From: Actinomycetes bacterium
Lineage (GTDB): Bacteria > Actinomycetota > Actinomycetes > Nanopelagicales > Nanopelagicaceae
Length of the DNA: 64,000 bases
Reading direction: 5' to 3'
Assembly: GCA_947383695.1 (NCBI GenBank)
Contig: OX376642.1
Span: forward strand, 558,001-622,000
Shown: piece after piece, positions 26,672 through 28,821 of the stretch
Position numbering within the stretch: the first letter of the stretch is position 1
Layout: each line of letters begins with the position of its first letter
Made by a program: the position numbers and the translations under genes
Notes under the pieces: model-generated
What the model saw: only the letters and a program-made list of their open reading frames with translations
What the model was told of the DNA's origin: nothing
The model's database searches: none

Positions 26672-27484
26672 TTACGCTTTTGCTGTGACCTTTGGCTTAG
26701 CAAGGTAAGGGACCAAAACCGCGCCTAGGTAGAGAACCCAGACACCCAGTTGTAGCCATGAGGTTGTTGTATCAAAGCCAATGGTTCCAGACAGTGAGGC
26801 ACCGAGGATTGAATCCTTGGCGATAAATGAGGTCACATCCCAGACAAAGGCATCAGGACCTGGAAGGTAGCCAAGCTCCTGGAACTCGTGGACTCCGTAG
26901 GACAAAACTCCTGCTGCAACGATGATCAGCGCAACACCTGAGTACTTGAAAAACTTTGAAAGGTTGAGCTTGATTGCGCTCTTGTAGATCATGAAGCCAA
27001 GGGTGATGGAAAGTGCAAAGCCCAAGACAAGGCCGGCTGTTGGGCTAGCGATATCTTGAACAGTTTGGAAGTTTGTATACACAAATAATGAGGTTTCTAG
27101 ACCTTCACGGATAACTGCGAAGAATGCCGCTGCTGCGATTGCGATTGGACCAACTGTTGCAGCCGCCTCAACCTTTCCTTCTAGCTCGCCCTTTAAATGA
27201 CGTGCTGTGCGCTTCATCCAGAAAACCATCCATGTCACCAATGCGACAGCGATAAATGATGTAACGCCGGCAAATAGCTCCTCGCCGCGCTCGCTCAAAG
27301 AGACAGAGGTCAGGGTCAGGAAGGCACCCAATGCGATGCTGGCAACCACAGCGATGGCGACACCGCTCCATAGTGGCTTTAAATACCCGTGGCGCTTTGT
27401 CTTGACGATGTAGGCGACGAGAATTCCAACGATCAATGAGGCCTCTAGGCCCTCGCGCAAGGCGATGATGAAGGTACTTAGCAT
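26672..27484 (-). CDS. FTR1-family iron permease
   Basis: A 270-aa membrane protein of the FTR1/EfeU high-affinity iron (or lead) permease family, with about seven membrane segments. Two REGLE motifs, the iron-handling signature, are present: REGLEASL at 10-17 and REGLETSLFVY near 133. No EfeO- or EfeB-like gene adjoins it, so it is an orphan permease. ATG at 27484 gives the canonical N-terminus and lies seven bases after a TAGATT -10; an in-frame ATG at 27520 would fall within the upstream palindrome. Confidence 0.92.
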   Translation of the reverse strand: MLSTFIIALREGLEASLIVGILVAYIVKTKRHGYLKPLWSGVAIAVVASIALGAFLTLTSVSLSERGEELFAGVTSFIAVALVTWMVFWMKRTARHLKGELEGKVEAAATVGPIAIAAAAFFAVIREGLETSLFVYTNFQTVQDIASPTAGLVLGFALSITLGFMIYKSAIKLNLSKFFKYSGVALIIVAAGVLSYGVHEFQELGYLPGPDAFVWDVTSFIAKDSILGASLSGTIGFDTTTSWLQLGVWVLYLGAVLVPYLAKPKVTAKA

Positions 27485-27520
27485 GAGAGAAAATCTAGAG
27501 GGTGTTAGGGAATTACGCAA
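27485..27520 (-). promoter_or_regulatory. FTR1 gene promoter, leaderless type
   Basis: On the minus strand TTGCGT (27520-27515) is followed by exactly 17 bases and TAGATT (27097 offset: 27097 is not used; hexamer at 27492-27497), then seven bases to the ATG at 27484. Both hexamers match the TTGnnn/TAnnnT primary-sigma pattern. The same hexamer pair occurs before padR. The transcript would begin at or next to the ATG, and the spacer has no ribosome-binding site. Confidence 0.6.
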
Positions 27521-27539
27521 CTCTTATGTTGCGTAATTC
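27510..27539. promoter_or_regulatory. 12-bp perfect inverted repeat on the FTR1 promoter
   Basis: GAATTACGCAAC (27510-27521) and GTTGCGTAATTC (27528-27539) are perfect inverted copies separated by six bases. The arm nearer FTR1 contains the -35 TTGCGT, so a dimeric protein bound here would be expected to block polymerase. The far arm begins in the stop codon of the RNase D gene. It is not followed by a T-run, so it is a poor terminator. It does not resemble the Fur or DtxR/IdeR consensus. Confidence 0.55.
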
Positions 27540-28821
27540 AGCCCTCTTCTGGGGTGTTTTCTGCCACTTCAACGGGCAGGGGTTCACGCTCAAGTAGGGC
27601 GGCTGCAAGGGCAGGAGCCACCAGATCGATCTGCCATTGGCGGGCCCCGAGCTCTGCCAGCCCCTTTTCAACCTCTGAAATCGACAAGGTTGTCGTTGCT
27701 CCAACAGGAGGCTTCCAACATATGCGTCGAACATGTTCAGGGGTAATTAAGTTCTCTACCGGAATCTGATTTTCTTGAGCGATTAATTCAATCGCAGCAC
27801 GTGCATGTGAGAGCGGAGCAAATTTTTCCGGAAACTTGTCTCGCCACAATTTAATGGGTGGCAAGGTGTCAGCGTTTGTTCGCATTGCTGGCCATTGTTC
27901 TTCAGGCATGGAAACAGCTGTAGCGATTGAATCGAGCCACAGTTGAAGATTTTCCATCCAGCGCGCACGAAGTCCTAGCGGACGTAAAGTTTTTTCAAAC
28001 TCCTTTTTATTTGTTGGTACCGCAATTGCAAGTTCTACGATTGCAGAATCATTGAGTAGTTTTCCTGGTGCAATATCTTGTCGTGCTGCAACCTCATCAC
28101 GTGCAACCCATAATGATTTTATGACCGCTAGTTGGTCACGTCTTTTTATCTTATGCATCCCCGAAGTTCTGCGCCACGGATCTACACGAGGCGGTGCAGG
28201 GGGAGCCTTTAAAATTGATGCAAACTCTTCTAGCGCCCATGGCAACTTTTTAGATTCTTCCAATATGGAATACATGCGATCGCGAAGTTCGACTAGTAAT
28301 TCAACATCCAAGGCTGCATAAGTAAGCCACTCTTGTGGCAAGGGACGGGCCGACCAATCGGCGGCGCTGTGCTCCTTTGCAAGTAAGACTCCCATTAATG
28401 ATTCAAGTAATGGACCTAGACCAACCCGCGGTAAACCAGCGATTCTGCCTGCTAATTCAGTGTCAAAGAGCTTGATCGGATTAATCCCAACTTCACGCAG
28501 GCAGGGTAAATCTTGTGTGCTGGCATGAAGAATTACTTCATCGGTGTTAAGCAATGTGTTGAGATCAGCAAACAATTGATGGCCAGGGCCAAATGGAATC
28601 GGATCAATTAAATGTAACCCACCATCTTTTCGCTTTATCTGAATCAGATACGCCCTGGCGCTATATCGAAAACCTGATGCACGTTCAGCATCTACAGCAA
28701 AGGGACCTGAGCCTTGAGACAAGGTGGCAAGCGCCTCTTTGAAAGCGGCTTCAGTATCGATGACCTGCGGAGTTCCGTCTGCTGGTTGCAGCAAAGGAGT
28801 AGCAACTACCTCTTCACTCAT
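27538..28821 (-). CDS. RNase D-like 3'-5' exonuclease with HRDC domain
   Basis: A 427-aa DEDD exonuclease. FAVDAERASGF near residues 38-48 holds the first Asp/Glu pair; HASTQDLPCL and YAALDVELLVEL carry the remaining catalytic acids. An HRDC domain is at about 220-300 (DQLAVIKSLWVARDEVAARQ). The actinobacterial family is paired with DUF3000, as here, two bases apart. It probably trims stable RNA 3' ends; the precise substrates are unknown. Confidence 0.93.
   Translation of the reverse strand: MSEEVVATPLLQPADGTPQVIDTEAAFKEALATLSQGSGPFAVDAERASGFRYSARAYLIQIKRKDGGLHLIDPIPFGPGHQLFADLNTLLNTDEVILHASTQDLPCLREVGINPIKLFDTELAGRIAGLPRVGLGPLLESLMGVLLAKEHSAADWSARPLPQEWLTYAALDVELLVELRDRMYSILEESKKLPWALEEFASILKAPPAPPRVDPWRRTSGMHKIKRRDQLAVIKSLWVARDEVAARQDIAPGKLLNDSAIVELAIAVPTNKKEFEKTLRPLGLRARWMENLQLWLDSIATAVSMPEEQWPAMRTNADTLPPIKLWRDKFPEKFAPLSHARAAIELIAQENQIPVENLITPEHVRRICWKPPVGATTTLSISEVEKGLAELGARQWQIDLVAPALAAALLEREPLPVEVAENTPEEG

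Follow-up and report, generated by a model that had tools for sequence, protein, structure and literature searches.

A perfect inverted repeat found upstream of an iron permease gene in a freshwater actinobacterium is a real, conserved operator. It is very probably the operator of the [4Fe-4S] repressor SufR, which would have taken over the control of iron import from DtxR/IdeR. SufR binding, repression and the response to iron or Fe-S clusters are inferred, and no binding or expression data are available. What we observed is a conserved site associated with iron importers and with sufR, the promoter geometry, the presence of SufR and the lack of DtxR and Rrf2 proteins. The repeat resides in a stretch of DNA of 64,000 nucleotides (the whole stretch analysed, here called the window), whose host is, by its closest named relatives, a Candidatus Planktophila-type acI actinobacterium of an order that we take to be Nanopelagicales. 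The likely identity of the regulator and the occurrence of the site at a second importer, where the permease is missing, go beyond the first-pass annotation of this DNA.

The gene concerned (26672..27484, minus strand; ATG at 27482-27484) encodes an FTR1/EfeU iron permease of 270 aa, matching Pfam PF03239 (E 8e-57; 193 bits, cut-off 25.3) and the NCBIfam EfeU equivalog NF041756 (317 bits, cut-off 255); no relative was found in the PDB at E 0.01. The permease belongs to the same family as EfeU of the EfeUOB system, but its gene is flanked by RNase D-like and thiolase genes, without efeO or efeB. The RNase D-like exonuclease gene (27538..28821, minus strand) lies upstream. A terminator-like stem of 10 pairs is present within the 3' part of the FTR1 gene (26721-26745, minus strand).

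The putative operator (27510..27539, minus strand), defined by sequence and conservation, is composed of two 12-bp arms, GAATTACGCAAC (27510-27521) and GTTGCGTAATTC (27528-27539), which are 100% complementary and six nucleotides apart, exactly as the first-pass annotation had described. The 24-bp conserved core TTACGCAAC-N6-GTTGCGTAA (27513-27536) includes an exact CAAC-N6-GTTG. The right arm overlaps the TGA stop codon (27538-27540) of the RNase D-like gene, a feature not recorded previously. The promoter proposed earlier is likewise present: in minus-strand order, the -35 hexamer TTGCGT (27515..27520), contained within the gene-proximal arm, is followed by a 17-nt spacer, the -10 hexamer TAGATT (27492..27497), seven nucleotides and the ATG, at which a leaderless FTR1 mRNA probably starts, as we infer. 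The exact pattern occurs only once in the 1.43-Mb genome of the window, and the site remains the sole place when as many as 3 mismatches across its two 9-bp arms are tolerated (reversed control, 1); a looser pattern with 8-bp arms and 2 mismatches yields 5 places including this one (control, 1). By simple arithmetic, chance alone would produce an exact 18-base match about 2e-5 times per 1.4 Mb. Shuffled windows searched with 3 mismatches allowed gave a mean of 0.25 matches, with at least one match in 19 of 100 shuffles, while the match in the real window is exact.

Related genomes carry the same site. The pattern TTACGCAAY-N6-RTTGCGTAA was found in 220 of 296 genomes of the order, in one copy each except in G208 and G302, and TTRCGCAAC-N6-GTTGCGYAA in 77 of 91 genomes of the window's genus; the latter was detected in none of 59 genomes of other families. 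According to the first-pass annotation, a lack of conservation upstream of orthologous permeases would have refuted the operator. This was not met: the site precedes all 67 testable FTR1 genes of the order (16-18 of 18 positions matched, 60 sites perfect; mean of shuffles, 9.6), as well as all 28 FTR1 genes of a second, partly overlapping set. The 67 genes were picked by protein similarity alone, with membership of the order judged from similarity and record titles and one incomplete locus (L152) left out. Four of the records carrying an acI-type FTR1 gene and an acI operator (L097, L098, L099 and L103) are titled Bifidobacterium breve, names that look wrong.

The core CAAC-N6-GTTG is invariant in the 67 FTR1 upstream regions, and so is the outer arm. 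Changes are confined to the outer five bases of the gene-proximal arm, so that each of the seven imperfect sites is altered in one arm only, and the six central bases vary. Genomes found with mismatches show changes in both arms, mostly at the outer bases. Nearly fixed arms around a variable spacer indicate a protein-binding site, and this pattern of variation fits a dimeric protein better than a paired RNA stem. The repeat could in principle act as RNA, either by terminating transcription of the RNase D-like gene or by serving as an FTR1 leader element, taking into account its stable fold (-19.0 kcal/mol for 41 nt, z -6.6) and its position abutting the RNase D stop codon. We nevertheless regard a hairpin function as extremely improbable and have rejected it, because the arms show no co-variation and fbpA genes at other loci are preceded by the same site; moreover, it lies upstream of the probably leaderless start and is not among the terminators listed by a scan of the window.

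The promoter geometry is conserved together with the site, which begins between -51 and -53 relative to the start codon at 159 of the 167 FTR1 loci. A TAnnnT hexamer follows TTGCGT after 17-18 bp in 164/167 box-bearing upstream regions of FTR1 (TAGATT being the commonest version, 62/167) and in 36/36 of fbpA. This bears out the promoter read earlier in the window, and the site is therefore part of the core promoter of both importer genes. These counts include only upstream regions with a box score of at least 16, distinct by exact 100-nt windows; close relatives remain among them, and duplicate records of one organism are possible. The first-pass annotation called the repeat a repressor position. 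Its conservation supports an operator, while repression by a bound protein has not been demonstrated.

A site with up to 2 mismatches could not be found in 14 of 62 genomes searched (61 of the 76 without an exact match, plus G037). Thirteen of these are less than 90% complete, the other being G325. FTR1 was sought in eight of the 14 and was not found in seven; the copy present in G012 gives a match only from residue 35 onwards. When up to 3 mismatches were allowed in 11 near-complete genomes, all had the importer site, two genomes of the g57 group also had a site at sufR, and G040 had one extra match (reversed-pattern controls, 0-3 per genome).

The site marks iron importers rather than a single gene. 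The first-pass annotation had proposed a search of the genome and its relatives for the repeat, and 97 of the 100 exact sites compiled precede either FTR1/EfeU (72) or an unrelated FbpA-type ferric-iron ABC importer (25), the remaining three lying at contig ends. The latter importer carries the same site where FTR1 is missing, and the product of its FbpA-type gene matches ferric-iron-binding proteins of the PDB (7w3w, E 5e-73). The hundred sites comprise 60 automatically compiled and 40 hand-picked loci; since some were chosen for their missing FTR1, the 72:25 ratio is not representative. In the second locus set, all 46 importer loci (18 fbpA, 28 FTR1) have the site, with the incomplete L388 left out. 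Among 48 locus entries with 1-2 mismatches, 31 precede FTR1, 9 FbpA, 4 sufR and 4 other places, one of these last sites being counted twice (L229, L334). At the level of genomes, 33 of 51 have FTR1 only, 16 FbpA only and two (G037 and G299) both, so that every genome has at least one of them; this count is not representative either, because some genomes were added for their FbpA. In G037 and G299 both importers carry a site.

Several further arrangements were observed. In G240 (L237, site 1501-1524) a site with one mismatch precedes an NRAMP metal transporter gene, which may represent a third importer type controlled in the same way. At six loci (L195, L220, L238, L239, L243 and L244) the site lies ahead of an FTR1-like permease that is far more distant from the window protein (33-35% identity), which suggests replacement of the importer within its family. 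G195 has, in addition to its FTR1 site, a second site ahead of an incomplete gene without a Pfam match and another, with 2 mismatches, seemingly overlapping a reading frame near a contig end. An iron-complex ABC entry is tabulated for acI strains in the available part of PMC5301498, so we make no claim that iron enters solely through the marked importer.

In Actinomycetes, iron uptake is known to be controlled by DtxR/IdeR, with iron-linked repression of importers via an operator in the promoter. In this order the situation is different. DtxR is absent from 43 of 45 genomes (PF02742 has no match in G000) and present in 8/8 genomes of other families. The best IdeR-box score upstream of the window FTR1 gene is 9/19 against a shuffle mean of 10.1, which agrees with the earlier suggestion of a regulator other than DtxR/IdeR and led us to reject an IdeR box there; scores on FTR1 genes of the order are also near shuffle level. 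The IdeR consensus used is the one that we assume to be standard. Of 12 FTR1 genes representing 12 of the 20 genomes with a match in other families, 11 have an IdeR-type box scoring 13-17/19, with shuffles near 9.6. The twelfth lacks it, and an additional outgroup set of 12 genes contains 11 without a box and one scoring 15; judged by sequence, the outgroup FTR1 genes without a box seem to lie closely downstream of another reading frame. RirA and IscR, Fe-S-sensing iron regulators of the Rrf2 family, resemble the proposed system in that iron import is controlled via the cluster state of the regulator, but they represent another protein family. A regulator of the Rrf2 type was rejected, as none of the 45 genomes of the order encodes such a protein above the cut-off, with weak sub-threshold matches only in G182, G184 and G248.

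The genus g53 combines both kinds of control signal. In G182, G183 and G184 a SufR-type box covers the -35 and an IdeR-type box the -10 of FTR1, and DtxR is present in both genomes tested (G182 and G184); in G181, the fourth g53 genome, no site was found within 2 mismatches. In a tree of 30 SufR protein rows, g53 splits from the order's 20 other rows with 94/96 support, which fits, without proving, an early branching of g53. A 14/18 SufR-type site beside an IdeR-type box (14/19) was also seen upstream of FTR1 in a genome of another family (L300, G050).

Fur-type control of an importer would be conventional, and Fur-family proteins occur in 52 of 53 genomes searched. The most plausible candidate among other metalloregulators is a nearly universal Fur-family protein encoded beside a ygfZ-like gene, whose closest solved relative, 3eyy, is titled 'Putative iron uptake regulatory protein'. 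We consider it quite improbable, however, that this protein binds the site as iron regulator. The 3eyy protein is presumably the nickel regulator Nur of S. coelicolor, no CAAC-N6-GTTG was found in 6-kb stretches around the gene in G000, G083 and G215, and related half-sites occur on sufR, the core being the published SufR motif. Going by score and matched positions, the second Fur-family gene, closest to the zinc regulator FurB (2o03) and adjoining a ZIP transporter gene in G000, is lacking in 11 of the 45 genomes searched within the order, each of which does contain the first type, and G308, in which only the second type was detected, nevertheless keeps the site. Zur-like Fur frames with one in-frame TAA were noticed at G099:C1:346510-346857 and, in two copies about 1.1 kb apart, at G275:C1:354883-355230 and 356017-356364.

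SufR itself is encoded elsewhere in the genome of the window, at the head of the suf operon (G000:C1:779291-779929, minus strand), as identified by its HTH, cysteines and operon context: the gene is followed by sufB (TIGR01980, 727 bits) and a second SUFBD_core gene (L315). HTH_24 scores just above its cut-off in G000 and G234, as does HTH_5 in G234, with other HTH models below their cut-offs. The cyanobacterial SufR model TIGR02702 (SufR_cyano) is not reached: its cut-off is 178.8, the G000 protein scores 70.3 bits and the range observed is 70-88. No PDB relative was found at E 0.01. All 42 aligned proteins share the cysteine spacing C-X12-C-X27-C, which is also that of the mutated residues C203, C216 and C244 of M. 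tuberculosis Rv1460, as given in the available part of PMC6034842. A homolog is present in 57 of 58 genomes searched, with only a fragment in G021.

The search with 2 mismatches revealed one further recurrent place, TTACGCAAC-N6-GTTGTGAAA, over the start of this suf-operon head gene. We read sufR upstream regions at 30 loci returned out of 57 matching genomes, at four found by the pattern and at two from g53, with starts located by tblastn. The right half-site GTTGTGAAA is present in 33/33 testable loci (the incomplete L254 was left out) and in both g53 loci; the site covers the start codon, whose GTG lies within the right arm, and the probable -10. Outside Planktophila (the window's genus) and g53, an exact CAAC-N6-GTTG occurs in all 13 testable loci, four found by the pattern and nine by protein similarity. 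It occurs in 0/20 loci of Planktophila and 0/2 of g53, where the left half always takes the form TTA(C/A/G)GACAC (GACAC for GCAAC) and 13-14 of 18 positions match, a score equalled by 0-2 of 300 shuffles per locus. In Planktophila the link between importer and sufR therefore rests on one well-kept half-site and on orthology. In other families the exact core was found in 2/8 sufR upstream regions (e.g. TTACGCAACAATGGCGTTGTGAAA in G066) and not in the other six. In G191, G221, G232 and G234 the sufR site was the only one found; G221 is 92% complete.

The SufR operator of cyanobacteria is CAAC-N6-GTTG (PMC8593673, PMC13421787), and that of S. avermitilis, with the same core, overlaps the -10 AACAAT, its last G being the transcription start (PMC11995493; excerpts in each case). 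The acI sites share the palindromic core and spacing of the Synechocystis and S. avermitilis operators and, at sufR, also the position over the start and probable -10. Unlike the known operators, they include a form whose 9-bp arms are perfect and which is placed at an iron importer without linkage to suf. Unequal sites for SufR are not unusual, since one high- and one low-affinity SufR site are noted for Synechocystis in the accessible text of PMC6034842. In the partial text of a review (PMC8593673), SufR figures as a regulator dedicated to suf; the excerpts of other papers name a further target, ftrC, in a cyanobacterium (PMC13421787) and four other M. tuberculosis genes that have ChIP-seq sites (PMC6034842). 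No iron importer was found among the SufR targets reported in the available portions of the last two papers. In the accessible PMC literature we found neither a case of SufR acting on an iron importer nor any account of acI iron regulation, which is weak evidence, since that literature is limited to open-licence papers.

SufR might also bind the importer site as an activator, or report redox or nitrosative stress more than iron supply. With its centre near -39.5 relative to the start base, the operator is placed much like the sites of class II activators. The clusters of SufR are, moreover, redox-sensitive in the available part of PMC13421787. Both variants appear improbable to us, as the published descriptions, so far as accessible, present SufR as a repressor (including PMC8593673, PMC13421787 and PMC6034842), and the acI sites lie over the start codon and probable -10 of sufR and over the -35 of the importer.

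Under repression by SufR, when iron and Fe-S clusters are plentiful, the holo-protein would occupy the -35 region of the importer promoter and block RNA polymerase. Loss of the cluster, through iron starvation or oxidative damage, would release SufR from its own suf promoter as well as from that of the importer, and the cell would thereby raise cluster assembly and iron import at the same time. Within the order, SufR would have replaced a control apparently exerted by DtxR/IdeR in related Actinomycetes, with DtxR lost from most genomes, and acI bacteria would, unlike those using DtxR/IdeR, sense Fe-S clusters, not Fe2+. A wider regulon was rejected for the 11 near-complete genomes, in which only the g57 sufR sites and the single G040 match were found beyond the importer; weaker additional targets cannot be excluded, because the Planktophila sufR site itself exceeds 3 mismatches. 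We find it reasonably likely that, after the loss of an ancestral DtxR/IdeR, acI bacteria were left with a single Fe-S-sensing repressor for their iron homeostasis, acting mainly at two places, the suf operon and an iron importer, and that g53, with DtxR and both boxes on one promoter, preserves an intermediate step; the perfect palindrome of the importer and the imperfect one of sufR may then set the order of release, suf first and import later.

The operator is thus most likely that of SufR, and most likely serves a repression that ties iron import to Fe-S status, although the biochemical steps have not been shown. This provides a specific and testable candidate for the regulator of iron import in a freshwater lineage that is very abundant. 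It is also a clear candidate for the replacement of one regulator by another, with the ancestral, intermediate and derived promoter states all found in living lineages. If true, it would extend the role of SufR from Fe-S cluster assembly to iron uptake, and these cells would judge their iron supply by Fe-S clusters, not by free Fe2+.
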